A stretch of DNA of 64,000 nt from Rutstroemia sp. NJR-2017a BVV2 (taxonomy: Eukaryota; Ascomycota; Leotiomycetes; Helotiales; Rutstroemiaceae), in the NCBI GenBank assembly GCA_002946415.1, contig NJPS01000004.1, forward strand, positions 997,001-1,061,000, given 5' to 3'. Shown piece after piece: positions 5,714-45,138 of the stretch (position 1 is the stretch's first letter; each line of letters opens with the position of its first letter). The translations under genes were made by a program, and so were the position numbers. A model generated the notes under the pieces. That model searched no databases and had not been told where the DNA came from. It worked only from the letters and a program-made list of their open reading frames with translations.

Positions 5714-5790
5714 TGTAAGGATTATAAGAATATAAGATTGAGATAAGATTTATTTGAGTACAAATACATTAATATGAGATCCGATTCCAA

Positions 5791-6015
5791 CTATATCTTC
5801 GTACTTCTTGCTCTAGTAGTTACTCCACTGCTTATAGGTACATTCTCCCAAGCTTTACCCCTCGCTGGCACCAGAGTTACCCTGCTATTATCACTATCAC
5901 CTTTATTTCTTTTTGCCGGTACTTGAGTTGTATTAGTACTATCCCCCTTTCTTTTGACTTTTTCCCCCCTTCGACCAGCTTTCTGACAAGCACTTACTGG
6001 TCCCCTGTTGTTCAT
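5791..6015 (-). pseudogene. In-frame C-terminal continuation of the integrase after a stop
   Basis: This 74-codon frame lies in exactly the same phase as the integrase. The integrase TAA (6021-6019) is followed by one sense codon and then this ATG. The product is hydrophilic and basic, with an RRGEKVKRK run that looks like a nuclear localisation signal. The simplest reading is that it was the C-terminus of a longer integrase (about 610 residues) cut off by a nonsense change. A separate small gene or stop readthrough is possible but has no other support. Confidence 0.5.
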
Positions 6016-6018
6016 TAA

Positions 6019-7629
6019 TTATACAGCTTTGTTCAAGCTGATTCGTATATTCGGCTTAGATACACCTGTTGTCGGAAGATCAGAGTAAATGGCTTGAGAG
6101 ACGAGCTTATTGAGTACTCCTGAGCTATAGAGGCAGGTCAACTCGCCGTACTGACTAACTAATCTGTAGCCTTTCTCTTGTACCTCAAGGATTCTCACTA
6201 GTAGCCGACGGACCTCAGGTCCAACCATCAGCTTAGGGGGGATTTTGAGTATTACAACCTCCTGTAATTCGTACTGAATCGATTTGCCCCCCTTTTTCTT
6301 GAGCATACTAGTATTGGATTTCTTGATATGGGCAGTCACTCGCTGATTAAGAATAGGCTCTTCCACTTCATCATCCACTTCCTGATTATTATCCCCCTTA
6401 TCTACCTCCTCATCTGCCTCCTCATCTGCTTCCTGTTCCGCTTTATAGCTATACTGCTCCTCTTCAAGTACTTGATAGGCAACTTGAGGGAGTACTTGAG
6501 GGGGTATATAAGGGGGTTTGCGGCCGAACCAGACCTCGTACGGAGTAACTCCAGGGGGGAGAGATTCAGGACATGTAGTGTTGATTACCCAAGCAATAGG
6601 AGGGATAAGATATACCCAGCCTTGAGTACGACCTTGATGTGCCATAGCAGCATATAGACATACTTTGAAGGTTTTATTGGCGACATCCACAGATCCCTGA
6701 GATTCGGGGTAGTATACTGCACCATGAATGATATTGATATCGTACTTGGTGCATAGGTCTTCCACTGCCCCCTTAAACTCAGATCCATTATCACAACATA
6801 GGTTCGGGAAATATCCATTCTCATTATACCACTCCTGTAGCTTCTCGACAACCTCCCTAACAGTCTTCGATTTGAGTGGTTCGATACAAATATATCTCGA
6901 GTAATAATATTTCAGTTGCCAGATCCAACAATACTCCCTATCAGGGGTAGCACGAAAGTCCATTAGATCAAGATATATACGCTCTCTTGGTGCTTCAGAA
7001 AGGATCGGCTTCACTTTACCTTTCTCCTTTTGAATTGCTTCTTTATTACAATAGCAGCAGCAATCCAGTACCCATTTAATATCATCACGAGTAATCCCAT
7101 AGTATAGAGTATTCAAGCGTTCGTACGTCTTATTGATAGCGAAATGGTATAATGCTTCATATATACTGATGATATTTTCGAAGGTATCAGACCATATAGC
7201 AGCGTATCTAGCTAGTAGTATCTCTCCTGTAATATTATTGAGCTCTGCCTTACAGTAGACCTGGTCATCCTGAAGCTCGAACTTGCATAGATAGAGATTT
7301 TTCGTACTTCGATCTCTAGCAATAGCTTCTTTTGTATCTCCAATAGGTAGTGCTTTAGGATGCCTTAGATACCGTCGATAATCCGTACGCTTCGTAGCAC
7401 TTAGGATGAACTTGGAACCCTCCCCTCGGTTCAACCGAGCATCAAACTCCTGCTCAATCTCAAGTGACCAGTTGTCGATATTGGGTACTCCTGGCTGGGG
7501 TAATGGAGATGAAGTAATAAATGTAGTACCTGTTGTTCGAGCAGATGGACTTGTTGGGTCTAAGTACTGGTTCAGAGTCCCATAGATACGATTCCGAGGG
7601 GTAAACTGAGCAGGAAGAGGGATAAGCAT
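6019..7629 (-). CDS. Ginger/KRBA2-type integrase (transposase)
   Basis: This frame encodes 536 residues from the ATG at 7629; the frame extends upstream to 7692 without an ATG. An HHCC-like zinc-binding segment spans about residues 155-195 (NKTYERLNTLYYGITRDD, then CCCYC), but the expected first His is Tyr (IYEALYH). The rve catalytic core follows: first Asp in IYLDLMDF (about 221), second Asp in CCDNGSEF (about 280), then HGAVYYPESQGSVDVANK. In the family this last motif reads QGSVERAN, so the third acidic catalytic residue is Asp (about 315) instead of Glu. A long acidic stretch (about 400-435) precedes a C-terminal domain. The product would cut and join the element ends in the nucleus. The D,D,D triad and the missing His suggest reduced or lost activity. 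Confidence 0.85.
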   Translation of the reverse strand: MLIPLPAQFTPRNRIYGTLNQYLDPTSPSARTTGTTFITSSPLPQPGVPNIDNWSLEIEQEFDARLNRGEGSKFILSATKRTDYRRYLRHPKALPIGDTKEAIARDRSTKNLYLCKFELQDDQVYCKAELNNITGEILLARYAAIWSDTFENIISIYEALYHFAINKTYERLNTLYYGITRDDIKWVLDCCCYCNKEAIQKEKGKVKPILSEAPRERIYLDLMDFRATPDREYCWIWQLKYYYSRYICIEPLKSKTVREVVEKLQEWYNENGYFPNLCCDNGSEFKGAVEDLCTKYDINIIHGAVYYPESQGSVDVANKTFKVCLYAAMAHQGRTQGWVYLIPPIAWVINTTCPESLPPGVTPYEVWFGRKPPYIPPQVLPQVAYQVLEEEQYSYKAEQEADEEADEEVDKGDNNQEVDDEVEEPILNQRVTAHIKKSNTSMLKKKGGKSIQYELQEVVILKIPPKLMVGPEVRRLLVRILEVQEKGYRLVSQYGELTCLYSSGVLNKLVSQAIYSDLPTTGVSKPNIRISLNKAV

Positions 7630-20794: not shown

Positions 20795-23070
20795 TCAGGC
20801 GAACAAAAAGGTATGCAGGCAAGCAACGCATCCCACGCAAGCCGAAAACAGCGTCAAGAGCATCACAAAACTCCTCAAATCACCAAGAAACATCCTCTGT
20901 CTCTCAACAATGACATCAACTACCGTCTTACTCAACTCCTTTCCCCTCCATCCATCCCTCCTCGCACACGGCCTTACCGGGTTCGGCACACATCGTCCCT
21001 TATCATCTTCCACAACAAAGTAGTCCTGCACCAATGTCTTTCCCTCTAGATATAGCATCCGCAGCCTGCCACTACAGAGCCCCAAATTCCATGTGTAGCA
21101 CGCGCCCTCAAGCGGGAACGGCGGGGACTCGCCCGAGTGCTCCCAATGTTTGTACATGTGTTCGGTTTTATACCCGGAGGCTGGAACGGTTCCGGAAGCG
21201 ATGTCGAGCCCGCTTATGGCACGCTGGAAGATTGTTTGTGCCAGCTGGGGTTGTTGCAGCCCTACGTTGTGGCTGGCGGAGTATACTCGGATGAAAGATA
21301 GATTACCTGCCTGCCGAACTTGTGCGCCCACGGGGTACCCTGGGAGTGAGATGTCGGCAATGCCGGCGGAGGAGAAGACGTGAGAATGACTAAAGGGGAT
21401 GGCGTGCGAGACGGCTTCGCCGCCGAGCCCTGTGCGAGAATAGTTAGCATCCGATTACTGATGGTGAGGGTCTACACGTTGCTTATTTCTTACAATTGCA
21501 GGCAAAGTCTCGATCTCCGTACACCATGGTCACGGACACTCCAGTGTCCATTATACTTGCAAGAGTCTCGAGAGATCCCCCTTTGACGTTATCACCTGTC
21601 AAGGAGAACGCCTGGGCAACCACCGGTGCGTTCGCGGAAAAGTTCACGGGCACACCGAGGGCGTCTTGGACGTGTTTCTGGTTCAGGTACCCAAGATATG
21701 TCTCAGAGAGGGGATTAGCAAGGAGATTGTCTGGGTACGCGATATCGAAATAGCTTCTACCCGTGGCGACGCTGGCGACATGCTTGCCGCAGTAATGGTT
21801 GGCGTCACGACAAATGTCGTCGACATTGCTTGCGACGCTTAGGTTGTGGTCAGCAGCTGTAGAAGCATTTCGGCAGGCTTGGATCTTTGCGAGGCAGCCG
21901 TCACTTTTCTTGAAGTTATGTATAGCTGTCAGGTAACCCGCCTGGTCCGTGAGGGGGGCGCTGTAGTTATTCTTAAGCGCCATTTCGGGGTAGTAAGGAA
22001 GCTGGGTAGGACCATCGATACATGCGTTGGTCATGCCCAGAATTCCGATGGTCAGTGGGATAAACTGCTCTTGGTCCAGCCTACCTTGGCTGTGACGTGC
22101 ATTTTGAGCCAACGTGTATTGGATGAGTTTTGGGACGAAATGGCCGCCATACGAAGACGTCCAGAAATTTATCTAGATGTTGTGAGAAAGCGCTTCTTTA
22201 AAAAGCTTGCTCGTTATGATCGTACCCTGTTATTCGAAGACTCTCTTTTGCCGAACTTCTGCATCCACACTTGGAGGAAGAACCATGTGCTGCGAGCCAC
22301 CACTTGCGTGCTGTTCGCGGTGTTGCGCGGATTATGGCTTGAAAAAAATCCTCGTCGCGATCCAGATGCAAGTCCCGCTGGGGTCTCTCTTGAATCCCTA
22401 TCCAACACCAGAGTGTCATCGGCATTAAGGACGCCGGGTTCAGCGAAATCGTAGCTGAAGCCTTGAATCAGGTCAATGCCAACTCTCTGCAAAGTAGAAG
22501 ACATTGCTTACCTGTTTGTACGGGCTGGTCAATATAAAGGATGTCTGAATGTTCATTCCAAGAGAATCGATTGTTAGAGGTGCTGTTACTGTCCGAATTG
22601 ACTCTGCACGGCCCGTTTTCACGGAACAAGGACATTACTGCGAAGGAGATGAGCTACGATATTAAAGCCACAAACATGTCGCAAGTCTTACAACTGGAAG
22701 CACCTGGCCCGCCCATAACTGCGGATGGTAAGCGCACAATCTATGTCTCTTCCTTTATACACTCACAATATACTGTCAGTGGTGAGTCAGTCCTCTTCTT
22801 CCGGTTCTGGAAGTACCAGAAGAAGATGTTGACGGGATAATCCTGAGTGGAATCGATGCCATACTCCTTCAGAACTCCAGGCTGTAGTCTAATATATCCA
22901 GAATGGCTCTCTACACCCGGCGTTTTCTCACACAATGAGACTGGCTTTGAGTCAACACGGATATCGTCTCGAAGTCTCAGGGAGAGTGTCAGGACAGGAC
23001 TCGGATTGAATAGAATCAAAAGGAAACCAGAAACTAGCCCATACACCGAAGAGCAAGGCATGACAGTCAT
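20795..23070 (-). CDS. Secreted serine carboxypeptidase (S10), candidate RiPP trimming enzyme
   Basis: Six exons, 23070-22767, 22718-22692, 22637-22512, 22461-22226, 22172-21494 and 21429-20795, encode 567 residues. A signal peptide covers about residues 1-27 (MPCSSVYGLVSGFLLILF). S10 landmarks in order are PLTVYFMGGPGASSLMSLF (oxyanion loop, made by splicing), SWNEHSDILYIDQPVQTGFSYD, the nucleophile Ser in WTSSYGGHFVPKL (about 137; most relatives have ESYGG), the Asp motif YGDRDFACNWLGGE, and the His in YSASHNVGLQQP (about 410). A hydrophobic C-terminus (FVMLLTLFSACVGCVACLHTFLF) could anchor it or signal GPI attachment. The family removes C-terminal residues; Kex1-type members remove the Lys/Arg left by kexin. 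It lies 3.5 kb from the KR-repeat precursor and next to UstYa genes, so it may mature the peptide. Confidence 0.88.
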
Positions 23071-23807
23071 GGTGATGCTATTGCCCCGTCAATGAAAGAT
23101 GAACAATATACACTCAAAATGCGCATATGCTTCGGGGCCGCCGCAGCTCAGACAGCACGGCGTAGTGACGATCAGCGTCCACCCTACTTTTCGTCCTTCA
23201 AGGATGTCCAGCGGTGACGCTCCTTGATACGAAATAGCTGGCAAGCGCGTGTGCATTAGCCTCTTGGCGAGAGTCAGCCTTAATACTTGTAATATGCATA
23301 TGATGTAGACTTGTACACTCTCTGTTTCTTACATGTCTGGTCCCAACGGTGCATGTGGGTGCTGCCGGTCTGGTCTTAGTTCGGCAATCAGCACCACCAG
23401 GATTGGAATCCCACATGACAAGCATCACCTTATCTATTAACTCGACGAGCTGCAACTCGCTGCTTCCAGTTTGATTTCGTGAGCCTTGAGTGTTGCTCGT
23501 TAGGCCTTCACAGTTCGTGTTGGCACACGGCAATTTGTACACCCACCCTCTTCGGGCTTGGAAAAAACACGCCGATCGGGAGTATAGGCTCTCGGTACAA
23601 AAATATCAACAAAAATATTTTAGTCTCTTAGGACCTTTGGAATATTTATTTGATCATAATACCTTAAATATATTTAATGCTTTAGGGCTTTTAGGATATG
23701 TGAGATATTTAGAATATTTATTCGATAATAGTAAACAGCTTCAATATATTGTCCCAAATCGGCCTGTTTTTTCTACTCCGAAGAGCCACCTACCTGAGCA
23801 ACCCCAA
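23071..23807. other. Divergent promoter with AT-rich island
   Basis: Region between the carboxypeptidase (minus) and the first UstYa gene (plus). Positions 23595-23760 are extremely AT-rich and contain two near copies of a gaatatttatt word (23640 and 23711), the appearance of an old repeat decayed by RIP-like mutation. A codon run upstream of 23808 is open but AT-rich and not protein-like. Confidence 0.5.
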
Positions 23808-24707
23808 ATGGACGGCTATCACCCATCCGAGTCTGAATCGCGACAAGAAGCATCCGAGAAACTGTTGTCCGACTCCAGCTCTCAGAATGATCTCAGCGAC
23901 CATGTCGAACTAAGACGCGCACGAAGAAGGCAGTGGTGTTCGCGATGGATCATTGCACTTCCCGGATTCCTTGCCTTCCTCACCATTTACTCCCTGGCCT
24001 TGGTATCTCTTGTGAAGGACTCGGTCTGCCTGACCGAGTCTCATTCAGCTGGGCAACTTATCTACAGTGCGCGAGACTGAGTATAACTACGTGTGTAAGG
24101 GTACTTGCTGATTGAGACTAGCACCTGTAAGGGATTCCATCGTCAAAGAAAAGAAGACCATCGATGTCTCGGTCCTGCACGGAAATCCTTTGAAAGGACC
24201 ACCCAGTCCGGAACTCGACGAGGCATGGAGTCGACTTCTGATGAATGCCAACGTACGTGTATCCGCAGAGGATCTCGAGAAGGCAGGAGTCGAGTCCATT
24301 CCACTGAATGATGGCTCTGGCAAGTATTATGCGATCCTGGATGTGTACCATCAATTGCACTGCCTTAAGTATATTCGCCATTACATGTACAAGGTGAGAG
24401 TGTACCCTAGCAGGCCGACTCGTTTCGCTTCTGTAGCTGACATGCCAAATAGGATATTTACGACGATGTTCAGTCATGGACTCCAACCCACGTGGATCAC
24501 TGCATTGATAGTATTCGGCAGAACCTGATGTGCAATGCGGACACGGCGATGATGGGGTTTCGCTGGGTGAATGATAGTCTCGAGCCTAAGCCAAACTTCC
24601 GTGGCCAGCATGAGTGTGTGAATTGGGAGAGAATCGAAGAATGGGCCTCTGAGCGGTCATTCAACCCAGATGACCAGGCGAATTTGCGCCACCCGAGCGC
24701 TGCATAG
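23808..24707 (+). CDS. UstYa-family (DUF3328) oxidase 1
   Basis: Three exons, 23808-24066, 24122-24393 and 24453-24707, encode 261 residues. The layout is typical of UstYa: a charged cytosolic N-terminus, one membrane span (about 50-72, WIIALPGFLAFLTIYSLALV), then a lumenal domain. The first metal-type motif is YHQLHCLKYIR (H163, H166, C167) and the second is DHCIDSIRQNLMC (H193, C194, Q200, C204). GPPSPELDEAWSRLL is the usual segment before them. UstYa proteins carry out oxidative cyclisation on ribosomally made peptides such as ustiloxin and asperipin. This gene converges on oxidase 2 (77 bp apart) and lies 1.8 kb from the peptide precursor. Confidence 0.92.
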
Positions 24708-24783
24708 CAATGTATACGTTAGACAACGGTGAAGAAACAAATGCATGGCATTGTGGCATATATTCATATATTCATATATTCAT

Positions 24784-25585
24784 CTATTCTGCTTCCTCGT
24801 CCTCAGGCGCGACCACGGGCCGGTGTTGACTCGCCCACTCAAATACATCGTGGTAATCTTTACAGACATGATAGTGCCCATCTATGAACTCCTTGGGCCC
24901 GCTCATGGGCACTAATGTCGTGTCAATATTGCACATAATCGTCTGCCGGATCTGATCGATACAATGCATAACATGCGCCCATGGCTCGCTCTGGTTCTTC
25001 TGCGCTTGAGATTCAAAGACCGAGGTTCGAATCTTGGCCAGACAGTGCAAGTTATGATACCCGGCCATGAAAAAGAGGCCATTACCAGGCGTGTCGGGAT
25101 CGGGCCATGTTTCTAAAAGGCCATGCGCTTCACGGTCGGACTTGCTTACTGATACCAAGCCATTGCCAGCTTCGGATTGCATGTCAGTCAACATACTCGG
25201 TAGAACTACAGCGATGTGCAACGTACAAGGGAAGAGACCTCTCCAAAGAGAGTCTGCTTGCGGCTTCTTCTCGTCAATACGGCCATAGGTCGTGTCTTGA
25301 AACACTGCGGTATGAATAGTCTTGTGAGGCGGATCTGGACAAATATCTTAGCAAGTTGGGCGTGTGCCTGGGAAGGCCAGCCTTCGTACACTCATCGATA
25401 CCCACAGGTCTTGGTGTTATAGACCATAGTGTCAGTATCCAGCCCACATTACTGATCAGCAAGAGCACGAAGACGCCCGTCTGCAGGAGAAAAGGCACAT
25501 TGTGTTGCCGACCTTGAGGAGCCGGCGGCCATTCGGATTCACTTTTTGTCTCCGAGTCTGACTCTGGCAGTTGGCTGTACTTCAT
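24784..25585 (-). CDS. UstYa-family (DUF3328) oxidase 2
   Basis: Three exons, 25585-25402, 25334-25227 and 25169-24784, encode 225 residues. The N-terminus is cytosolic, followed by a membrane span (about 30-52, VPFLLQTGVFVLLLISNVGWIL). Motif one is GYHNLHCLAKIR and motif two MHCIDQIRQTIMC. A 57-nt intron (25226-25170, gtacgt donor, CTGAC branch point) is in frame, so an unspliced reading is also open; the spliced LFPSGNGLVSVS fits relatives better. It shares the region 25586-26520 with the precursor gene, divergently, so the two may be co-regulated. Substrate unknown; the neighbouring precursor is the obvious candidate. Confidence 0.9.
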
Positions 25586-26002
25586 TTCGTGGAGGAGGGG
25601 GCTTTCAGAGCTTTCCTAGCTTTAACCTTCAAATCGAATTGCTGAACTTGTGATATGGGATTGGAAGTAATCCAGGAAGCAAGGCAGAAGGACATAAAAC
25701 AGCGGGCATCACTAAACCCCCAAACTTGACAGGCGTGTTATTCATCAATTACTTCGAGGCTCCCAATGATGTGACTAGGGTTACAATAGTTGGCATTGGC
25801 ATAACGACAAACAAGCTTCAATCCCAATCTGGAGAACGAACGGCGCGAATGCATGGTTACAGGGCGATCTGTACCTACTACCAAGTCTGCATCGGATTCG
25901 TATTGAAATCGGACCGGTCTTGCTTACTACCTGTGCTACTTTCTGACACCGAATTCTTCCAACAATAACCCCAAGGCTACCCCGCATGAGCTTCGCCTAC
26001 GA

Positions 26003-26282
26003 CTCTATCCTCGCGCCTGCATAGTCTTACTCAGACTGGTGTGACAAATAGAGAGGGCTAGGGGACGGTACAAACTCCTAGAGAAGCCCGAAGAATGGTA
26101 GGCCTTTGCACAATATGGCAAGGTAGGAAACGAACCACCATGCCGGAAAAGGCAGGTGATGATATAGCATAAGCTCTATCCTCGCGCCTGCATATTCCTA
26201 CTGAGAGCAGTTTGAGAAATAAAGAAAGCTAGGGGGCGGTACAGACTTGCAGAAGCCCCAAGCATAGTAGGTGTTTGCACAA
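26003..26282. repeat. 110-bp imperfect direct repeat in the precursor promoter
   Basis: Copies at 26003-26113 and 26174-26282 both start ctctatcctcgcgcctgcat and end gtttgcacaa or ctttgcacaa, with clear similarity throughout (tagagagggctagggg against taaagaaagctagggg; ggtacaaact against ggtacagact). They lie 240-520 bp upstream of the peptide precursor ATG, between it and the divergent UstYa gene, so duplicated regulatory sites are possible. Confidence 0.8.
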
Positions 26283-26415
26283 GGAAAGGCATCCTTCTTC
26301 CCCAGAGAGCAGTACCCCATGTCAAATCCGGCCGTTGGTCGATAGCGACCGATTGTGCTCAGACATGGGAGATTGACTCTCTTTTCGTCTATTGCACCAT
26401 CAATTCAGACTCATC

Positions 26416-26421
26416 TATATA
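26416..26421 (+). promoter_or_regulatory. Likely TATA box of the precursor gene
   Basis: TATATA, 100 bp before the ATG at 26521. It is followed by a CA/CT-rich leader (aaccaccatcacacc) typical of highly expressed fungal genes. Assigned by position and sequence only. Confidence 0.5.
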
Positions 26422-26520
26422 TTGGACCTGAAGTTCGGCGTCTTTAGTCGTCCAACCATCTCTAACCCACATCAATAAACCACCATCACACCTTGACCTC
26501 CAAAGAATCTCTCAGCAACA

Positions 26521-26877
26521 ATGGCTTTCAAGAATTCTGTTTTGCTGGTGCTCGCCATCGCCTGCGCCAACGTTCTCGCTGCCCCTTTGGCCCTCCCGAA
26601 AGCTGCGACCGATGATACCCTCGCGAGTCTCCCAAGTACAAGCGCTGCCTACGTCCACGGCTCCTACGGCTACGACAAGCGTGCCGAGGAGACTACCGAT
26701 GACACACTCGAGAGTCTCCCAAGTACAAGCGCTGCCTACGTCCACGGCTCCTACGGCTACGACAAGCGTGCCGAGGAGACTACCGATGACACACTCGAGA
26801 GTCTCTCATGTGCAAGCGCTGCCTACGTCCATGGTTCTTACGGCTACGACAAGCGTGACAAGGATATCGCCTGCTAG
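26521..26877 (+). CDS. Secreted KR-repeat RiPP precursor peptide
   Basis: An intronless gene of 118 residues. A signal peptide (MAFKNSVLLVLAIACANVLA) is followed by three 29-residue repeats. Each has an acidic spacer (TDDTLESL) and then the block AAYVHGSYGYDKR. The KR pairs (residues 53-54, 82-83, 111-112) are kexin sites, and the last leaves a DKDIAC tail. The Tyr-rich block is identical in all three units, although unit three differs from the others by three silent bases inside it and by three amino-acid changes just before it (PST to SCA). This layout matches precursors of ustiloxin, phomopsin and asperipin-type dikaritins and other kexin-processed peptides. Six UstYa genes and a carboxypeptidase surround it. 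The exact core boundaries and the final compound are not known. Confidence 0.9.
   Translation: MAFKNSVLLVLAIACANVLAAPLALPKAATDDTLASLPSTSAAYVHGSYGYDKRAEETTDDTLESLPSTSAAYVHGSYGYDKRAEETTDDTLESLSCASAAYVHGSYGYDKRDKDIAC
26611..26856. repeat. Three tandem 87-bp coding repeats
   Basis: Units start at 26611, 26698 and 26785, exactly 87 bp apart. Units one and two differ at only a few sites; unit three is more diverged and stops after the KR codons. This is the DNA form of the precursor repeats and is prone to copy-number change by unequal recombination. Confidence 0.95.
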
Positions 26878-28532
26878 ATGTTGTGCGTGTTATGGTAGTT
26901 CTCACTGCGACAGCGAGTGTGAATACAGATTTGGCTCTATGCTCGGGAGTGGGCAAATTACGAAGGTGGGACCTTGGAACGACGTTGGTATGGCTGAGTG
27001 GACTATCAAACTGTTAGGGCTTGATTATCATGGTCCGTAGAACCTGGAACCCCATGTAACTAGAATTAACAGTCCTTACAGAATGCGCTGAATCTGCTTA
27101 ACTGTCTACTCTGCTTATTATTAGTAACCATGATGACTTCCTCCATAAAACTAACGAAGTAGTTAGGGTGGCATGATTGAAGAGATGAAATACCACCATC
27201 CCGAGAAATTAGACCATTCTTGCTTGTAAATTTTTATTTTATTTTTATTTTTTTTTTTTTTTTCAACTTTCTAATACTCTGTGATCAGACCTTCTGAGCA
27301 CGTAAAGTAAGAGGTGGTAGTTGACCGAGTACAGGGCCTGTAATCTATGGACCAAGGATCAAGTGTAGTCGATAGCAACTAATCGTCAGCCGCCACCGTA
27401 GGCGAGCTGAAGATTAGCAATAGACGTTCTGTCAGATCTACTTTTTAGCGCGCCTGCTAGCAGCCACCCAAGCTTAGCTAATGTCGGCAGGGCTGCGGCA
27501 CGGATCACTAGCGGGTGCAGGATATAGCGGGGTAGGTTGAATGCTACAGTAGTGAGTTCTTACTATAGGAAGCTTACTGTACTGTATCGTGCGCGCTAAG
27601 ATACTGCATGCGGGGTAGCGGGGAAGCGTACGGAAGGGATACCGACAACAAATCAAAATATTGGAGGACTGATCTCCGAAGACCTGCAGAAACCTATTTT
27701 TCCTATCTCATTGGTGAATATATAACTAGCTATCTTGTTATGTATCTATTTTATATAGATCAGTTTGGGAGAAATATTCCCTTTGGGAACCCCTGAATAG
27801 TGAATATTATTCCTGATATTTTTCAAATAGGAAAGATAACTAATTTGCCCTATCCAACAAAAGTTCTAAATTCTAATCACCGATCCGTGAATCTGCAAAG
27901 GTGGTCAGATATTTTGTCGACTAATATTCAAGGAGGCAATACTCTTATTGTAGTAGTATGATGATTCATGTCTACTATTAATGCAATAGTAAGGCGCGAG
28001 TGCATTCTAGTACCTTTTCGTCTACCTCTTCAAACCTACAAATATGCATGTGATGGCGGGATAGATGGTAGGGATAGTGATCAGGGCTCTGTAGCTGCGC
28101 AAGCTATCTTATTCGCGAATTATACGACATAGTGGTGAAGTCTCAGGAAGGGCTTGCATGGACCAGCTTCGCTCCGGTATACAGACTGATGAAGCGGCAC
28201 TCTCGCTAGCAAGTACGCCTTCTTCAGCGTGGCCGCGTAGATACGTAGGATGTGGCGGGGTGGGTTGCATACTTGTGAATTCTCAGGAAGCTTTATCGTG
28301 GGGCTTCATGGACCCACCTCCTTGTAGTTACAGCGGTTGGATTATTGTCCGTCTGAGGGTGCTGTACTACCGTCGGCATCTTCACCAGCTCTGGTCCAGC
28401 ACGAGTGCTCGAGTTGTCCCTCAATGTTCGGAAGTAGCGGAGCCGAACCTACAATTCCTGGCATCTTTGGTGCTTGGACTTTCTCATTTCATTCCATTTG
28501 TTACACATCTCAGTTCGCTCTCTACTGGCACA
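26878..28532. other. Intergenic region with poly(T) tract
   Basis: Begins with the likely 3' UTR of the precursor. A long T-rich run lies at about 27227-27262. The rest, including AT-rich stretches at 27690-27840, shows no gene. Frames at 28158-28532 are open into the next gene but the ATG at 28533 gives the expected UstYa N-terminus. Confidence 0.5.
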
Positions 28533-29605
28533 ATGTTTGACGCTTTCCGTGGCTATAACAAGCTCAACACTGACGAGGAGAAGGAGAGCTCCATACGGAG
28601 CGCGACAGAGAGCCCTTCACCTTGCTTGTACTGCGGAGGTCATGCCCAAACTCGACCTCGGGCTTTGTTCATGCAGTATCTCGGATGGTTCTTGCTACTT
28701 GCACTGTCTGCTTTTGTAGTCTTTTCAAACAGAGACTTGAGATCTTCGAACATCAAGCGGCTGATAACCCAGACGAGTTCATATTGTGAGTGCCAGTCAA
28801 GCTTACATTCATTATCTTCCACTGATAGCTCTGTAGCTCCTATACTTGAAGATTTGGATCCAGGGCTTCAAGAATTCCGCTTCAACGGTTCCATTCGCTG
28901 GCCGTCGCCATATCGAGGGCCTCCAAGCAACGCAGTCGATGCTGCGTGGAACCGAATTTCAATTGTCCGGCCGCTGGACCTCGATATTTCGAGGGAGGAC
29001 TTCCATACCATTGGCGTCAACCCAGACACAGCGGCAACAAATGCTCCAGAGCACGGTGGCGGGTACTTCATGGTGCCGGAGTTCACACATCAACTTCACT
29101 GCGTGGTGAGCATTGGATCGAAACCAAGAGTTGACTAGCCGATATACTGACTGCCGAACAGAATCTGCTTCGTAAAGCGTCATATTTCAAGTATGACTAT
29201 TATAAAATCCATGACCCTGACTTCGGTGACAAGGAAGAAACTTTCAAGGTTCATCTGGGTAAGGCTTTGGTCATGCTGCGCATGATTGTATGGTACAGTT
29301 TTGCTAACAGCTTCGATAGATCACTGCGTCGAAATGTTACGCCAATTCGTGATGTGCCATGCAGATGTCACCATCGTGACTGCTCATGTGAGTTCTTAAA
29401 AGAGCAGTTTAAGTAGGACTGGACGCTGACGGCTTCACAGTGGATCGAACAACGCAGCAGACCTTGGCCTGATTTCAATACCAAGCATGTGTGTAGGGAC
29501 TTCGAAAAGGTGCTCGATTGGACAAACAAACATTCAAAGCCCGTAGGGACTCCTTTGATCCCCATGAAGCCGGAGGGTGCCATGGCAATGAGTTCGCCGC
29601 CATGA
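28533..29605 (+). CDS. UstYa-family (DUF3328) oxidase 3
   Basis: Five exons, 28533-28785, 28837-29105, 29162-29258, 29320-29387 and 29441-29605, encode 283 residues. There is a cytosolic N-terminus (MFDAFRGYNKLNTDEEKESS), a membrane span near 50-70 (YLGWFLLLALSAFVVF), then SPYRGPPSNAVDAAWN. Motif one is FTHQLHCVNLLRK, formed across a splice site, and motif two is DHCVEMLRQFVMC. The first 51-nt intron is in frame and could be retained, but gtgagt and the SPILEDLDPGLQEF join support splicing. It is the first UstYa gene to the right of the precursor, in the same direction. Confidence 0.9.
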
Positions 29606-30225
29606 AAGACCATTGGTCAGGGCCCGGGATGTAGTTGAAATTCAGAATTAGCATTACGTGCTTGAAATCTAAAACCTCCCTTTCATTTGCGGTGCACCAT
29701 TACTATCGTTCAGATTTGATCAGCATCGTGACTAGTGCGGAGAGAAAGAGAGTGACGCCATTTCGGAATTCAGCCCATGGCTTTCCAAGACCACGGTTAG
29801 GCAGGCCGCAGTTATATGCAGTGTCAGCCAACGGGGAGGGGCAACACTGTTGCAACGCTAATGGTACAATCTACAATCAGATGCCATCCCACCTAATGCT
29901 TGATACATATACGAGCCATCAGCCGCCACAGCTTAGCCTACTTCGTAGAGATCGCCAATAATTTACGCTGGTGATCCCAGCCACGTTAGGTCTCGCATAT
30001 CGACTGTAACAATCGAAATAATACATCCATTATAAGATTCTAGATGCCTTTGGTAGCAGTGCGCTCTTCGTAGCTAATTGTTGTAGTGTTTTGGTGGCGT
30101 AGAGAATTCGGAGATTTCGGGCTTGGGACCTGTGTAAGACAAATCATGAACCACCTAATGCTGCCTGATGTCTCGCCTTTTTAGACCTATTCCTGGTATT
30201 GTATGGAAGGGGGTTGATAGTAGCA

Positions 30226-30459
30226 CGCGATGGCGGAAAAACCCCTCATACCAAAACAGTTCTCCTATTATATATCTTTATTTTTGAGACGGATTTTGAG
30301 GTATTTCACCTTTTTAAAATTAATGGAAGTATCTCTAGCTACTAGAGAACTATAAATGGTTTTTAAATTATTTTTCCAGAATTTCATTTAAGGTTGTTGT
30401 TGACCAGATTTATTTAGGTGAGGAAGTGTTTTGGTGTAGGGGTTTTTTCCGCCATCGCG
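30226..30459. mobile_element. MITE-like element, 234 bp
   Basis: The left end CGCGATGGCGGAAAAA is matched by the reverse complement of the right end, and the pairing continues through CCCCTCATACCAAAACA against CCCCTACACCAAAACA, about 35-40 bp in all with one indel. The centre is AT-rich and non-coding. A clear target duplication was not found. It looks like a non-autonomous DNA transposon between UstYa genes 3 and 4. Confidence 0.75.
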
Positions 30460-30752
30460 GGGTAAGTCTCGGTAAGGTAGCAAGGTTATTAATACGAGAC
30501 CCCCCTTTTGCATCAAGTGCAGACAGCAAGGGTCGGCATCAAAGCAGGTGACTGGGGTGGCCCGCGTATGCACTTGGTGCCCTTTCACGTGCCTTTTTAC
30601 TGTACCTATGGCGCAATCTGCAGTTAAGTTAAGGTTTCCTCACTGCATATCTGCACTTCAAGGCACATCGATCGCCTCATTGAGTGTGCTGACTTAGGGG
30701 GTTTCCACCAGCTTTGGTATAAAGCTGTGTGATAAGGGCCGATACTTCGTAC

Positions 30753-30781
30753 AGTAAGCGCTATGAATCATAGCGCTTACT
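30753..30781. repeat. Perfect 14-bp-arm palindrome
   Basis: agtaagcgctatga, one base, then the exact reverse complement tcatagcgcttact. It could form a hairpin or bind a dimeric protein. It is not next to a gene start. Confidence 0.8.
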
Positions 30782-31634
30782 ATGATGCCACTGACTAATA
30801 GCTTAGGTATGAGGCGGCAGGTGCAACCAAGGTCGCACCAGTTAGTCGGCACCAGAACCACCTTCTTAGAAGGATCACAGAAATACGAGACCTTTGACAC
30901 GGGTTACATTGGCATCACTGCTCCGTTATACTTTGGTGCCAGCCCAAATAAAGGTTAAATTTATTCTGGTAGATTCTATCAATAGGGGTGGTTCTATCGT
31001 ATCAGATCGTTAGGATCCTACAATACTGGAGAATTTTTAACTAACAACCGGGGTATACATATTAACCTTTATTATGCCCGAGACGAAGTATGAGGCAAGT
31101 GTTGCAGACGAAGGACTAAACTAACTCCTTCTGAACCCCGATCATCACGCCGCTGGCGAGTCGTTCGTCTAGATGGATAGGATGGCTTGACCGCTAAACA
31201 CCACAGCCAACATGTCGACATCGGTCCAAAACATCTCAACCCCCCGTTCCGACTTCTGATTTTCCTGCGTTACAGTGCACATGTCTCCAGAGCGCCTAGC
31301 CGCCAAGGTGCGGGGCGTCTCACGATATGTCTATTGTAAGATACCTTCCATAGACGGCCGCCATCAGAATTCCACACTGCGAAAAGCTCATTGGTAAAGA
31401 GACCCCGATTGATGAACATGTTACATCGTGCACAAGAATCCTGTGCCGAGTGACACATCGATACTGACTGCCGTCAGTCCCGCGAAGGACATTCCCCAAC
31501 TTTCTTCCGCCAAGCCTGGTCCAGATTTTGGCTTCCAATTTTCCAAAGCCTACGCTGCAAGCTTGCGCGCACGTCGACACAACCTGACTACTCGCTGTAT
31601 CTGTTCGCTCAACATCTTCATCTTCATCATCATC

Positions 31635-32369
31635 ATGTGTGCTGTCGTCCTCAAGCCCGCCAACTTCACTGTCTTTTTCATACTTCTTCTTCTTATCATC
31701 TCACTCTTCGTCTTTTTCAGGGCCAGCTTTCCAAGCAGCCAAACGTACGGATCCTGGCTGTCACCATCGCCATGCTCCTGCGAACAACCCAACGCGAGTG
31801 GCAACGATGAATTGACCACAACACCCCCCAGTGCCTATCTCCAAGCTTTCCGCACGAGACCCGAGCTCGAAGATATGACGGAGGTCGGAGATGCAATATG
31901 GTCAACAATATCTTCGACTAAGCAAGGCGGCTTTCTCTGGGTACGATACAATGAGACGTACAAGACCGGACACGGCGTGAGCATGTTTCATGCCTTACAC
32001 TGTCTTTCTATGATTCGGGACGCTGTCAAAGGGTCAAAGAGCGGGGCCGGCGCTCACTCACATGGCTCCAAAAGAGGCATTCATGGGGGAAAGAGTGAGG
32101 ATGAGATGCATCTAGGGCATTGTCTCAGCTATGTTGCGCAGTCGTTGCTGTGCTCGGCTGATGGCACGCTGGAGCGTCCGAAAACTTACACAGATGATGC
32201 GGGCAACGTGCTGAGGGACGATGTGGACGGAGAAGACGTTAAACATCAGTGCAAGAGTGCGGATTACCTCAGAGAGAAGATTGAGCAGACCGAGCAGCGC
32301 TCACTGGACTCAGTACCGAGACTGAAAGAGGGGGCAACGATGTGGGATCTCTTTGACGAGCTGAGGTAA
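31635..32369 (+). CDS. UstYa-family (DUF3328) oxidase 4, divergent
   Basis: A single exon of 244 residues from the ATG at 31635. The frame is open back to 31428 without an ATG, so an upstream exon cannot be excluded. The start chosen gives the normal UstYa length and puts a membrane span at about 11-28 (FTVFFILLLLIISLFVFF). Motif one is MFHALHCLSMIRD. Motif two is GHCLSYVAQSLLC: the usual [IL]RQ is VAQ, so the Arg is lost while His, Cys, Gln and the last Cys remain. A Gly/Ser/His-rich insert (SKSGAGAHSHGSKRGIHGG) separates the motifs. It may have a different substrate or role from the others. Confidence 0.82.
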   Translation: MCAVVLKPANFTVFFILLLLIISLFVFFRASFPSSQTYGSWLSPSPCSCEQPNASGNDELTTTPPSAYLQAFRTRPELEDMTEVGDAIWSTISSTKQGGFLWVRYNETYKTGHGVSMFHALHCLSMIRDAVKGSKSGAGAHSHGSKRGIHGGKSEDEMHLGHCLSYVAQSLLCSADGTLERPKTYTDDAGNVLRDDVDGEDVKHQCKSADYLREKIEQTEQRSLDSVPRLKEGATMWDLFDELR

Positions 32370-32516
32370 ATAGGTGTTGACAGTAAATAATGGTGAAACC
32401 GATATATTTGCAAAGCCACAGAAAGCTGGTTCTGGGCCAGTGCCAACATGCATTTGTAAAAGTACATATAGTCATTCAAATACCACAACAGATTGTCAAG
32501 GTCTTAGTATTTACCC

Positions 32517-33488
32517 TCAGTACACTCCATCACAATCAACTCCTTCCTCGCATGGCACATGAATCAGCTCAAGCCCCTCCTTTGGTCTCCTAATATATTG
32601 TATCAAATGTTCCACAGAGTTCTCTCTTGCCCATCCCACCATGTGATCCCAGTTCTGGCATGCATGCACCGTCTTGAAGTTCGGCTTTGGCATTCGCTCT
32701 CCTTTGACCCAATTGTACGTCAAAATGCTGAGGTCTCCGCTACACATCAACGACTGGCGAATCTGCTCAATACAGTGTTCGCGATGCGCCTGAACCTCCT
32801 CCGACGTGTGGCCATGGAAGCCTTGATAGTCGGGATACCGATCTGGGTAGAAACTCTGGCGAATAAGATTCTGGCACATAAGTGTGAGTTCGCTGGCGGG
32901 CAACAGGTATCGCAGAGGGGATGAGATTTGGAGGAGCTCGCTTACCAGACAGTGCAGTTTGTGCACAACGTCAAAAGTCGCCACGTACTTGTCCTTAGAC
33001 TCGTAGGGTACGCGGACTCCTGTCTCCAGAGAGGGATTGACCTGTTGGAAGAGCTTTGCAGAGATGCTAAATGCACCCATGTCGTCCTCGACGAGGTTTT
33101 TCCATGCTTGGTCTGTTTCGTTGCTGGGAGCTCCGGACCAGGATGAGGAGAGTGTGAACGTCCGTTGCTGTCTCTGTAAAAGCTTTTCATTAGGCGCTGG
33201 ACTGAGGTCAGTGTCTGAGACTTCGAATCTGAGGCGGACATAAAGTGACCTACTTGGAGGGAGCATATAGTCGGTAGCATGCAAGGCGTTTCTGGTCGAC
33301 GCCCATGACGCGAACACGGTGATCATGATGATATTCAGAAGCAAGATGGCCACATTGCACGCGAGGAAACACTGCGGCCACAATCGTGGCAGCAAACGAG
33401 CGTTCTTCGAGGCTGATATCTCTTCACCATCGTCGAAGTTGCTCAAGGGCCGATATGAAGCCTTTGTCTCCTCATTCACGGCCGCCAT
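32517..33488 (-). CDS. UstYa-family (DUF3328) oxidase 5
   Basis: Two exons, 33488-32946 and 32870-32517, encode 298 residues. The 75-nt intron splits motif one (VVHKLHCLNLIRQ). Motif two is EHCIEQIRQSLMC. A membrane span lies at about 40-62 (CFLACNVAILLLNIIMITVF). The segment WSGAPSNETDQAWKNL matches the family block before the motifs. A second small intron around 33265-33170 is possible, because relatives are shorter there, but the frame is open and no canonical pair keeps the phase well. It converges on oxidase 4 with 147 bp between stops. Confidence 0.88.
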   Translation of the reverse strand: MAAVNEETKASYRPLSNFDDGEEISASKNARLLPRLWPQCFLACNVAILLLNIIMITVFASWASTRNALHATDYMLPPSRSLYVRLRFEVSDTDLSPAPNEKLLQRQQRTFTLSSSWSGAPSNETDQAWKNLVEDDMGAFSISAKLFQQVNPSLETGVRVPYESKDKYVATFDVVHKLHCLVSELLQISSPLRYLLPASELTLMCQNLIRQSFYPDRYPDYQGFHGHTSEEVQAHREHCIEQIRQSLMCSGDLSILTYNWVKGERMPKPNFKTVHACQNWDHMVGWARENSVEHLIQYIRRPKEGLELIHVPCEEGVDCDGVY

Positions 33489-33575
33489 TCGCCAATATCC
33501 CACAGGCCACAATTCAGCTGAGGTCTGTATGGTGTGGTTGGAGAAGGATTAATACGTCGAGAAATATAAATTACG

Positions 33576-33734
33576 AAAGGGGGTTGTTAGTGGGTCTTGT
33601 CTATCCTTACTGTATCTTCTGCCTTAATATTTAAGGAAATTTATAGAAAAAAAATTCTAGAATTTTAGACTGTTAATTAAAAAAATAACCCTGTTACCTT
33701 ACAAGATGGATAAAATATACTAACAATCCCCTTT
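33576..33734. mobile_element. Short MITE-like element, about 159 bp
   Basis: AAAGGGGGTTGTTAGT at the left end pairs with ACTAACAATCCCCTTT at the right end, with one mismatch. The interior is AT-rich and non-coding. It lies between divergent UstYa genes 5 and 6, inside their promoter region. Confidence 0.6.
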
Positions 33735-34016
33735 GGTACAAAAAGGTCATTTTCTGATAAGGTTTGGTCAAGAGGGGTGACAGGGATTCAGGGCCCCACC
33801 ACCCCCAAACCCTCCGGGGCAGCTCAAAGCGTCCCATCATGCAACTTCGTTGTCGTTTAGGTTGTCAGCAACAAACCATACATCATATGCTCGGCTACAC
33901 CGTCAGACCAGACTAGAAAGCTGGATTACTGGGCCCATGCTATGCTCCTAGTCTTGGCCCCGGGCACGAAGCCATCGCCATGCCCCTCGCTGCTTGCTTT
34001 ACTTCTCTGAGGACTG

Positions 34017-34073
34017 AGGTCTGATAATCTTTCATCAAAGTCACCAGGTCTGATAATATTTTTCAAAGTCACC
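34017..34073 (+). repeat. 28/29-bp tandem duplication touching a start codon
   Basis: Units at 34017-34045 and 34046-34073 both read aggtctgataat...tcaaagtcacc. The second ends at the base before the ATG of UstYa gene 6, so the 5' leader of that mRNA is duplicated. Confidence 0.85.
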
Positions 34074-35217
34074 ATGGCGTCGAAACCACATGGCTTCTCT
34101 CAGCCAGAAACACTTGAGGAAAAGTATCTCGATCATGATGCCGCTTCTGAAGACCACGACAGCTCTTCCGCCCTCCTACCATCAATCGAAGAAGACGGAC
34201 GCAGTCTCGAACAAAGTCATCAACAGAGACGTCTTGTTTTCATTTGGATCGGCCAGGCGGCATTTTTCATATTTTCTCTTTCCATGCTAGTGTATTCGTT
34301 GTATTTGCAGAAGCAAATGCCTCAAAATTGCACGCGAAAGCTCTCGTCGCCCTGTGAGTGCATCACCCCCTAGTTCAAAAGCGAAAACTGTTCGCGATAA
34401 TGCCTGACCATCTAGCTCCTGCACTCGAAGCGTTGACCGACGATGATTACGAATGGGTCCGCTGGAACACTACGTTGAATACCTTTGGAGAGTTTACCGG
34501 CAACTACACTGAGGAGAAAGCCAAAGCATGGCTGGATATCACCGCAAGTGAGTTTGGTCGAACTCCAGCTCAAGTATTTCGGGTCACTGCTTTCACAGTG
34601 TATCGAAGTACTCATTGTTGTTTCTTTCTTACTCATCTGGCGTCAGCTCCTGTCATCACTGTGTCCGAGGCCGATATGATCAGTGCTGGTGCTTCCTTGG
34701 ACTCCGTACGAGTGCCTGAATCTGCCGGAGGCGGCTACCTGGCTCAGCTCGAGGGATTCCACGACCTGCATTGCCTTCGCGTACTGTGGTATGATCACCA
34801 CTCCGAGGAGATCCCGGAGACCAAGAAGTCTAAGCTAGAGAATTCACGACACTATGAAGCGCATTACGAGCACTGCGTCGACCTTCTACGGCAGAACCTG
34901 ATGTGTCATTTTGAGTGAGTTCGCCTTCCTCCAATCATTGCTCCGAGCAAAGTATTGACTGACACACTTACAGTACAAGCTTTGCGACTTTCAATTGGCT
35001 CGTGGATATCGACGAACCATTCCCTTATTTTGCGAACCCAAAGAAATGCCGCAAGTTGGACAAGTTAGTGGACTGGACACATCAGCACAAGTTTCATAAG
35101 CCAGAGGGCTTTATTTGGGAGGCTCCTGATGACGCTCATTTAGTTAGAGTAGTCGACCGTGTTGCACAATGGGATGAACCTCGGGTGGACAAGGATGGGA
35201 ACGAGCTGCCAGTGTGA
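34074..35217 (+). CDS. UstYa-family (DUF3328) oxidase 6
   Basis: Four exons, 34074-34353, 34416-34547, 34647-34914 and 34974-35217, encode 307 residues. A charged cytosolic N-terminus precedes one span at about 60-80 (FIWIGQAAFFIFSLSMLVYSLYL). Motif one is GFHDLHCLRVLW and motif two YEHCVDLLRQNLMC. The order YEWVRWNTTL...AWLDITA...ADMISAGASLDSVRVPESAGGGYLAQLE is typical of the long UstYa subtype. It is the last gene of the run of six; the next gene is an acetyltransferase 757 bp further on. Confidence 0.92.
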
Positions 35218-42717: not shown

Positions 42718-45138
42718 TCACAAGTTCCCCGTATTCCACCAATTGCTTGCGTCATCGTCAAAAGCCTGACTATCGCCGTTGAAGGGATCATTGAACAAGT
42801 CCCACCCCAGATCGTCTAATTGAGAGGCCTGTGCAGTTCTTTTCCGACTTTCTGGGGGATTTGGAGATGGTGGGGTTGGGGTTTGCCCAAGGTTAGATGT
42901 GATGGCAGGACCATCAGTCGTATGAGCGAGTACATGGGTCAACTTAACATTTGTGGCTTCTTTTGTCGTTGAACCAAAAAGATTCGATGCGGAGAATATG
43001 CTCTTGCTGGGTTCTTTCGATATGTTCCTCACAGGATATGATAGGAGACTCCATATCAGGGTCAGATCTGAAGATGGGATTTCCAAGTTCACGAAAGGAG
43101 GAGCCGAGGAGGGTTTCCATGAAAGTGCTCTTTTTTTGATAGTAACGAGATTATTTGCCTGTATTTATATTAGTGTATGAGAGGCTTTTTCAGCATCGAT
43201 ATGATACTCACTATTATCTGCACATTAGGCCACTTGCAAGCAAGTTTTGCTACAAAACCATAACATACAGCGAACCTTGCCTGAGCTTGGTCCTTGACAC
43301 TTCTTTCCTCAATGTGGCAGTACCATAAGTGAGTTATACAAGCAATTGCCGCACAGTAACCCAGGAATGGATCTGATGATTCAAAGTGTCTATTTCCCAA
43401 AGTTTCGATGAGTCTTGCGATGTGCTTTGCATGAAGCAAAGCTAGATCAGATGCTGTTTCGAGAAATGATGTTGGGGCCATCCCAGCGTTGCTCTTCACC
43501 TTTTCGAACAACCAAAATGGATTGTTGATCAGGCACAGCGTACCATGATATGTGAATTGGACATTCAACCAAGGGCCCCAGTATCTAATGTTCATCAGTA
43601 GGTCGGTAGGTGATTGTTCCGAGAACATCGCATGTGCAGAACGATGGTTTTGGCAGAGGTACGTCTCCCACTCCATCACTGACGCTGACATGTCGAAATA
43701 GCCAGATCCGGAGGACCAGGGGACCTCGGACGAATTCAAAGACCCAAGTACATATTGTAGAGAATCTTTCCAGAGCTCCACCAGCTGGAATGAATACCCT
43801 ATGATACCTTTATCTTGTGTCTGTCCTGAAGAATAGTCTCCAAACTTTCGCAGGATAGTGGGAGGACCATGCGCAGATTTGACACTCAGACTCGGAGGGA
43901 ACGGTGGTTTCTCGTGTGGCAGTGATAAACGGCCCTTTGAGGCATCACTGCAGAGACACTCCAGCATATAGAAGCCCCAGAAACAACGGCGATACTCATC
44001 GATAGCAGCCTGGTCAAAAGGTACGTCTGGCTTCAGGGGCATCTGCACAGATGTAATAAGTCGCATGCCGATTCCTATGCTAAGCCAAGCACGTTGTATG
44101 TTTGCAGCTACACTATTTCAGCTGAGAATTTGTTTGCGCAAGGGGATTCAACTTACTCGTAATGTCGAAGAAGGCCTGAAGACAGAGGGCTTGTAGAGTT
44201 GACATATCCACATTCTCATCGATTATCTTTTGCATAACAATCTGTCGTGTTCTTTCAGCATATTGTACTGCCAATTGCATGGAATCACCCGGGACTTGGT
44301 TCGAGTCCGAAAATCGAAGCGCCAGCGCCAAAATCGAAAGTAGAACTTCGGGTTTATATGAATCGCTAGTACTTCGTAGATTGTCTACGTCAAAAATTGA
44401 CAACGGTTGACAGTCACATCGACGTATGTAGGTTTCCACCAAGCCAACGATAGTAAGAGGTGGCAATGAAATCCCCGAACTGATAGCTTTTAGCTGACGA
44501 CTACTCCTAGGTACCGGGTTGGTGTGGAAATACGGTACGAACCTTTGCAAGTCATTTCTGCTCCTACTTTCATACGCTGGAGGAGGAAAGTTGGCAGTGG
44601 GTTGCTGAGTTGGAGCAAATAAAAGTTCATCGGGTTTTTGACCTGATGTTAAGAGGTTTGGAGGCTCTCGAGGTTGAGTAACTTGAGTTGAGCTGTTGCT
44701 ACGTCGAGTAAATTACTAAAAGCACCCAAGTACAGCGGAATTCACCTCACTTACAGAACGCGATTAAGTACCAAGTCGACTTTCGCTTCGAGATTCTCAA
44801 AGCGATCTTCCTAACAGGCCATCAAAGTCAGTTACATGGACGAGGGATATCTCCAGTTTATTTAACTCACCCACGCAGAATTAGTTAGTTGCTCTACATT
44901 TCCACTTTTTGCAGAGCTCTCCCAATCGTCAGAATATTTGCACTTCTGATTCAAGCGCGCGCAAAACGAGCACTTAGGTTTCTCCCCAGGACATCGCGAC
45001 TTTTTCCGTCTATGTACAATGCTGGTCAGCCACGAACTCTAATAGCCTGCGGTGGCTTTCAAAAATTTGCAAAAATCGGCGAACTTACCTGCATGGCTCG
45101 CATGCCTGCCTAATGCGTTTTGCAGGTCTCGATTCCAT
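42718..45138 (-). CDS. Zn2Cys6 transcription factor with fungal-specific domain
   Basis: Six exons, 45138-45089, 45009-44871, 44810-44755, 44698-44157, 44107-43212 and 43158-42718, encode 707 residues. The zinc cluster at residues 13-42 reads ACEPCRRKKSRCPGEKPKC and then SFCARLNQKC, split by intron 1. A short coiled coil (EDRFENLEAKVDLVLNRVL) follows. The fungal-specific domain (about 140-560) contains AWLSIGIGMRLI and EYRRCFWGFYMLECLCSD. The C-terminus is acidic with Trp/Asn/Asp (DDLGWDLFNDPFNGD), an activation-domain look. It is the nearest regulator to the RiPP genes on the right, about 7.5 kb from the last UstYa gene, and a possible pathway regulator. Confidence 0.92.

Follow-up and report, generated by a model that had tools for sequence, protein, structure and literature searches.

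The window analysed here, a stretch of 64,000 nucleotides (bases 997001-1061000 of contig C34, 1,355,129 bases long) from the 43.4-Mb, 79-contig genome of Rutstroemia sp. NJR-2017a BVV2 (Leotiomycetes, Helotiales, Rutstroemiaceae), carries one repeat precursor gene together with six UstYa genes and the gene of an S10 serine carboxypeptidase. Judged from the sequences, these genes probably specify a dikaritin-like pathway to a ribosomally synthesised and post-translationally modified peptide (RiPP), in which Kex2 would cut the precursor, the S10 enzyme would trim the fragments and the UstYa proteins would cross-link or otherwise oxidise the core YVHGSYGYD. The genes and the core copies are listed below in window coordinates, with the evidence for each.

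20795..23070, minus strand: S10 serine carboxypeptidase, 668 amino acids, six exons (20795-21429, 21494-22172, 22226-22461, 22512-22637, 22692-22718, 22767-23070); Pfam, relatives, hydropathy
23808..24707, plus strand: UstYa-1, 261 amino acids, exons 23808-24066, 24122-24393, 24453-24707; Pfam, HxxHC motifs
24784..25585, minus strand: UstYa-2, 229 amino acids, exons 24784-25169, 25227-25334, 25390-25585; Pfam (unspliced stretch), HxxHC motifs
26521..26877, plus strand: precursor, 118 amino acids, signal-peptide-like N-terminus and three repeats of the form spacer-AYVHGSYGYD-KR; repeat finding, sequence, hydropathy, homologues
26650..26676, plus strand: core copy 1, YVHGSYGYD; sequence
26737..26763, plus strand: core copy 2, YVHGSYGYD; sequence
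26824..26850, plus strand: core copy 3, YVHGSYGYD, with three silent differences from copies 1 and 2; sequence
28533..29605, plus strand: UstYa-3, 283 amino acids, five exons; Pfam, HxxHC motifs
31635..32369, plus strand: UstYa-4, 244 amino acids, intronless, lowest Pfam score of the six; Pfam, HxxHC motifs
32517..33488, minus strand: UstYa-5, 298 amino acids, one intron (32871-32945); Pfam, relatives, HxxHC motifs
34074..35217, plus strand: UstYa-6, 307 amino acids, exons 34074-34353, 34416-34547, 34647-34914, 34974-35217; Pfam, HxxHC motifs

The precursor is built of three tandem 87-bp units (93% matches, Tandem Repeats Finder score 437), each made of an acidic or Ser/Thr-rich spacer followed by the core and by KR, and its N-terminus is hydrophobic at residues 7-25. 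It offers what is expected of a dikaritin precursor, namely predicted secretion (by hydropathy alone, as for the hydrophobic and membrane-like segments of the UstYa and S10 proteins) and a repeated core with dibasic Kex2 sites. An earlier, sequence-only reading of this DNA had placed a signal-peptide precursor with three KR-ended repeats at 26521-26877, and repeat finding, sequence and hydropathy bear it out. The block AYVHGSYGYD which it gave as the repeated element is present in the window, but the invariant part is the nonapeptide YVHGSYGYD, because one related precursor has V in front of it. Three of these nine residues are Tyr, and the linear peptide has a computed [M+H]+ of 1060.437. When repeat 3 is compared with repeat 2, the core shows three silent changes and no amino-acid change and the spacer shows three amino-acid changes. 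The core had also been said to be unlike known ones, which holds for paper text: HGSYGYD and longer pieces of it found no match among 5.39 million papers (supplements and figures lay outside that search). In its own genome the precursor matched only itself. A weak Pfam match to a nucleotidyltransferase within it was discarded as a chance match to the repeat (22.6 bits for a cut-off of 26.9). Upstream of the gene, at 26003-26282 of the window, there are two imperfect direct repeats (of 70 bp and of 32 bp, with 83-84% identity and a spacing of about 170 bp).

Relatives of the precursor were sought among proteins with E up to 0.1 (1045 candidates) and a findable size between 0.55 and 1.75 query lengths, so that longer precursors may have been missed. 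Five matches were obtained: Leptodontidium sp. 2 PMI_412, Gnomoniopsis sp. IMI 355080 and Xylariaceae sp. FL1272 with two core copies each, Cladorrhinum sp. PSN259 with one and a metagenome protein with three. The window's own precursor has no entry among these matches. Counting the window, six precursors supply 13 copies of YVHGSYGYD, all identical, except that one stops before D in a partial record. The surroundings vary: the 15 residues preceding the core differ in all 13 copies, the nearest 11 residues exist in ten versions and the first spacers have a mean identity of 0.37 across the six precursors. The named fungi belong to the Leotiomycetes (Leptodontidium, by genus) and to three orders of Sordariomycetes, and the persistence of one fully specified core in both classes predicts a single defined product of wide use.

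All six UstYa proteins score above the PF11807 cut-off of 25 bits (181.6, 69.4, 184.1, 67.0, 164.0 and 135.5 bits for UstYa-1 to UstYa-6, the value for UstYa-2 coming from one unspliced stretch across its last two exons). They are distinct, with pairwise identities of 17-33%, and each has one membrane-like stretch placed before two HxxHC motifs, which is the arrangement of the DUF3328/UstYa family (HxxHC(x)nHxxHC after an N-terminal membrane helix). The precursor is flanked in the window by UstYa genes which all (6/6) keep both motifs, as in dikaritin loci, and the six genes reported earlier within 11.5 kb are confirmed over 11.4 kb (23808-35217). The 75-bp intron of UstYa-5 is in frame, so that a simple open reading frame (ORF) retains it; its removal is supported by P0006, P0008 and P0009, relatives whose sequences continue across it. 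A comparison of UstYa-5 with solved structures gave no match. In the whole genome, 79 UstYa exon matches form 57 gene-like groups at 31 places, and the window's run of six is the largest of these places; the counts come from a coarse grouping rule and should be read as minima, some contigs being repeats of others. A 29-bp direct repeat in two copies (34017-34074 of the window) ends at the start codon of UstYa-6. A further five UstYa genes, among them one similar to UstYa-4 (34%), are grouped at 584424-590629 of contig C58; this group was rejected as a copy of the cluster, with identities of about 27-43% and no repeat precursor in the 17 kb read.

That six UstYa genes are many for one precursor, as had been remarked, is true when set beside the published mean of 1.7 per precursor having any, but less so beside phomopsin, which already has five, ustiloxin having two and asperipin-2a one (PMC7329392; this and the other papers cited by accession were available in part, and statements taken from them apply to those parts). 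A phrase search of paper text found no paper mentioning six to eight DUF3328 or five to seven UstYa genes. In phomopsin biosynthesis several UstYa proteins act on one peptide, which they cyclise and desaturate (PMC10512285). Members of the family also hydroxylate and halogenate (PMC10512285, PMC12435403, PMC12048977), and the core could be desaturated or hydroxylated only, giving a linear oxidised peptide without a Tyr ring. We regard this outcome as improbable, as the core is rich in Tyr with the spacing seen in ustiloxin and phomopsin (Tyr1 and position 3) and as the dikaritins named in the available parts of the cited work are cyclic.

The S10 gene looks intact from its sequence. Its spliced model is supported over the whole length by a 669-amino-acid Leptodontidium relative, 95% identical, and Peptidase_S10 (PF00450, cut-off 21.9 bits) scored 55.3 bits on one of the two exons tested and 21.7, just under the cut-off, on the last exon. 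The near end of the gene is 3.45 kb from the precursor start, in agreement with the earlier figure of 3.5 kb. The relative P0016 (95% identical) was aligned to carboxypeptidase Y through the motifs SSYGG, GDRDFACN and ASHNVG, whose residues we take to be catalytic in the latter; the window protein has all three, so that Ser, Asp and His follow in the order of the S10 family (the alignment being that of P0016). Carboxypeptidase Y (1wpx) and KEX1 (1ac5) are among the nearest solved sequences, and a hydrophobic N-terminus together with a C-terminal membrane-like segment is a further likeness to this pair. Unlike these, the cluster enzyme belongs to a group of its own. Among the best 120 of 320 database matches (the scope of all S10 statements below), at least eight named entries are 83-100% identical to it: Leptodontidium PMI_412, Xylaria flabelliformis, Oculimacula yallundae, Rutstroemia BVV2, Rutstroemia WRK4, Xylaria arbuscula, Xylariaceae FL1272 and Gnomoniopsis. 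Several of these are partial, and the Rutstroemia BVV2 entry is the window itself (100% over 84%). Next come Penicillium proteins at 52-56%, the rest being mostly at 34-44%; of the metagenome proteins, one reaches 88% over half its length and others 56-59%. In a tree built from the window and 24 hand-picked rows of the 120 matches (25 rows in all), nine cluster rows, the window counted twice, form a single group with a support of 100/100. The Penicillium proteins (P0024-P0027, four species) form a related S10 group which perhaps serves a sister pathway with another core.

For the probable dikaritin-like pathway, the following course may be proposed. Kex2 would cleave the putatively secreted precursor behind each KR, and the S10 carboxypeptidase would then remove K and R. 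In dikaritins and other repeat proteins, the basic residues that remain after KEX2 cleavage are taken off by KEX1 (PMC9769878); the S10 enzyme is the natural candidate for this step here. The acidic spacer would be trimmed by an unlinked protease. The UstYa proteins, predicted to be membrane-anchored copper enzymes, would cross-link and otherwise oxidise the core, different members performing different oxidations (cross-links, hydroxylation or desaturation) on the same peptide. Within the family, CctR has a binuclear copper site, depends on oxygen and binds copper through the HxxHC motifs, and AprY and ApnU are also copper-dependent (PMC12435403). Rings would form through Tyr side chains; a Tyr1-His3 link is our first candidate, because Tyr1-Val2-His3-Gly4 matches the YVIG of ustiloxin A except for His at the cross-linked Ile, and further Tyr rings may follow.

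Evidence from other fungi concerns mainly the S10 gene. Here linkage is inferred from the same organism name and contigs of identical size, and gene annotation in these genomes may be incomplete. In three of the four named precursor fungi the precursor and an S10 relative (83-95% identity) appear to share a contig: Leptodontidium PMI_412 (contig of size 532,201), Gnomoniopsis IMI 355080 (89,766), where the precursor N0V82_007392 and the S10 relative N0V82_007391 are consecutive loci, and Xylariaceae FL1272 (304,690). The FL1272 contig also holds a UstYa-5 relative three locus numbers from the precursor (GGR57DRAFT_507883 and _507886). UstYa-5 was the only one of the six UstYa proteins used as a query (E up to 1e-20, 368 candidates). 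Conserved synteny, which the sequence-only reading had named as a check, is thus seen for the S10 gene in three of four fungi and for UstYa-5 in one, the UstYa-5 link being unseen in the other three.

Several observations weigh against the proposed pathway. Outside the window, a UstYa-5 relative is seen with the precursor in FL1272 only (one of four named fungi), and none from PMI_412, Gnomoniopsis or Cladorrhinum is among the ten UstYa-5 matches. Incomplete annotation may be responsible for this, or the merging of proteins above 90% identity in the database, by which a near-identical relative may sit under another name. Four of these ten come from Botrytis or Botryotinia, which gave no precursor match and no S10 relative among the matches listed; the B. 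cinerea protein P0010, whose first HxxHC motif is without its leading His and whose annotated sequence stops early, is possibly decaying. In these genera the cassette may be coming apart, or genes may be missing from the annotation. Cladorrhinum has no S10 relative among the matches listed, and its precursor has a single core copy without KR. The four closest precursors have a spacer identity of 0.69 and keep TDDTL and SAA, and since they share much of the spacer, part of the constancy of the core is plain kinship. The relative P0006 of UstYa-5, modelled from ten sequences, gave a mean predicted local distance difference test (pLDDT) score of 38, which is unusable. As for partners, genome scans in which the best candidates alone were scored returned 23 matches for tyrosinase and four for S41 peptidase, none of them on contig C34. 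Neither a transporter nor a clear pathway regulator stands beside the cluster in the 30 flanking ORFs scanned with Pfam out of 36 of at least 150 amino acids (five overlapping others and one of 152 amino acids were left out, and introns could hide further domains). Finally, no shared promoter motif rose clearly above shuffles over five separate upstream regions.

Part of this evidence would suit another explanation, in which YVHGSYGYD is a linear, conserved signalling peptide released from a pheromone-like Kex2-repeat protein and the nearby UstYa proteins serve other peptides or none. A core invariant across classes would fit a signal whose receptor is conserved, the search showed no UstYa-5 relative for three of the four named precursor fungi, Cladorrhinum retains the core although no S10 partner is visible there and, in a survey of Kex2-repeat genes, 22% have a UstYa neighbour and 78% do not (PMC7329392). 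The sequence-only reading had itself named relatives with a precursor devoid of UstYa neighbours as one of two findings that would refute it; PMI_412, Gnomoniopsis and Cladorrhinum show none of the UstYa-5 type, whereas FL1272 has one linked. We nevertheless consider the signalling role unlikely. UstYa-2 adjoins the precursor in the window, the UstYa-5 relative accompanies it in FL1272, three Tyr in nine residues fit UstYa substrates, and the same survey reports UstYa neighbours for just three pheromone-annotated precursors, although one of these is in Rutstroemia sp. NJR-2017a BBW (PMC7329392).

The flanks bear on a further alternative: that the UstYa enzymes tailor a different backbone, e.g., a nonribosomal peptide or a polyketide, the precursor being a chance neighbour. 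DUF3328 enzymes do act on nonribosomal peptides, as in cyclochlorotine biosynthesis (PMC12435403), and exons of a type III polyketide synthase (chalcone synthase family) are located 23 kb from the cluster (window 58481-59940, plus strand). This alternative is very improbable in our opinion, since the 30 flanking ORFs scanned hold no match to a nonribosomal peptide synthetase or a large polyketide synthase and since the precursor is surrounded by the UstYa genes and, in FL1272, appears linked to relatives of both UstYa-5 and the S10 enzyme. These ORFs likewise gave no match to a transporter, a cytochrome P450 or a methyltransferase.

Compared with known systems, the locus is of dikaritin type in one sense of the word. 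By the broad genetic definition, dikaritins derive from a Kex2-repeat precursor cyclised by UstYa homologues (PMC10512285); by the narrow one, they require a phomopsin-like set including a tyrosinase (PhomQ-like) and an S41 peptidase (PMC6514808). As contig C34 has no tyrosinase or S41 match, the locus, judged from its genes, is within the broad definition and outside the narrow one, and the earlier label of dikaritin-type holds for the Kex2-repeat precursor with UstYa genes and fails for these two partners. It resembles the ustiloxin and phomopsin clusters in the signal peptide, the repeated core, the KR sites and the presence of several UstYa genes (two and five, respectively, in those; PMC7329392). 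It differs from them by nine conserved residues, six UstYa genes, the adjoining S10 gene and the lack of a tyrosinase or S41 match on the contig. The type G-10 which groups ustiloxin, phomopsin and POI2 has a YxIx core with a Tyr-Ile cross-link (PMC7329392), whereas the core here reads YVHG with His third; in comparison with the YVIG of ustiloxin A (PMC7329392), His replaces the cross-linked Ile. The four-gene asperipin-2a cluster (aprA, aprY, aprT and aprR) shows that a Tyr-rich core (FYYTGY) can be cyclised without a tyrosinase gene in the cluster (PMC6514808). That cluster has a single UstYa (AprY), a reductase and a transporter, whereas ours has six UstYa genes, an S10 gene and a different core, and the 30 of 36 flanking ORFs scanned do not reveal the asperipin-2a set. 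The locus differs, on sequence grounds and as far as the available parts of the cited work go, from the dikaritins described there by its invariant nonapeptide, six UstYa genes and linked S10 gene.

A bolder proposal would make it a new RiPP class, in which six UstYa enzymes produce a polycyclic YVHGSYGYD with a Tyr-His cross-link and further Tyr rings, the S10 enzyme replaces S41 and the cassette has moved between Leotiomycetes and Sordariomycetes; we find this proposal as a whole doubtful. A 2022 review counts five characterised dikaritins for 838 Kex2-repeat precursor types, 22% of the genes having UstYa neighbours (PMC10512285). Six UstYa enzymes acting on one short peptide would constitute a compact system for assigning roles in a newly recognised family of copper enzymes, and the linked S10 gene may encode a protease that trims fungal RiPPs; according to a 2019 review, the proteases trimming the flanks of the ustiloxin core are still unknown (PMC6514808).

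The movement between classes is suggested by the S10 identities, set against a single yardstick carboxypeptidase of presumed orthology. Between PMI_412 and FL1272 the cluster S10 is 83.0% identical and the ordinary carboxypeptidase 51.5%, and between PMI_412 and Gnomoniopsis the values are 85.1% and 49.8%; within Sordariomycetes, FL1272 and Gnomoniopsis show 81.5% and 64.3%. The window S10 is 95.5% identical to that of Leptodontidium versus 91.0% to the annotated one of Rutstroemia WRK4, the order in the tree being weakly supported. A second carboxypeptidase listed for Xylaria flabelliformis, at 33-38% to the remaining yardstick rows, was unusable as a further yardstick. Counting against transfer, the grouping in the S10 tree does not contradict the species orders, and slow evolution of the cluster enzyme is an alternative. 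With one yardstick and a tree compatible with the species orders, we rejected horizontal transfer as an established result.

Of the other neighbours, a GNAT acetyltransferase is directly to the right of the cluster, a 2-oxoglutarate oxygenase 5 kb to the right and a short-chain dehydrogenase about 19 kb away; the regulator-like ORFs at 2332-4512 and 44116-44712 score under the Pfam cut-offs. Three intergenic regions separate divergent genes, as defined by the gene models:

23071..23807, no strand: divergent intergenic region between S10 and UstYa-1
25586..26520, no strand: divergent intergenic region between UstYa-2 and the precursor
33489..34073, no strand: divergent intergenic region between UstYa-5 and UstYa-6

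Because these genes are divergent, three pairs of upstream regions overlap, and promoter words shared over eight upstream regions were rejected for this overlap.

The general layout of the precursor is that of Kex2-processed repeat proteins (PMC7329392). The survey type G-5/P-1, with Rutstroemia, Botrytis and Sclerotinia among its sources, has a high content of Y and D, and UstYa neighbours are recorded for 16 of its 35 members (PMC7329392). Two additional repeat precursors were seen elsewhere in this genome. On contig C41 (L044:2513-2983, plus strand), a second Kex2-repeat precursor with a signal-like start contains seven repeats QTTEFGPYPEDDY(A/S)N(S/K)K, six of which end in KR, and is about 3 kb from two UstYa groups. 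A third repeat precursor, on contig C59 (L035:about 5720-6141, plus strand), has a signal-like first exon, an apparent intron and six copies of GTDADAANKVY, of which five precede KR or RR, in a stretch which holds five UstYa groups.

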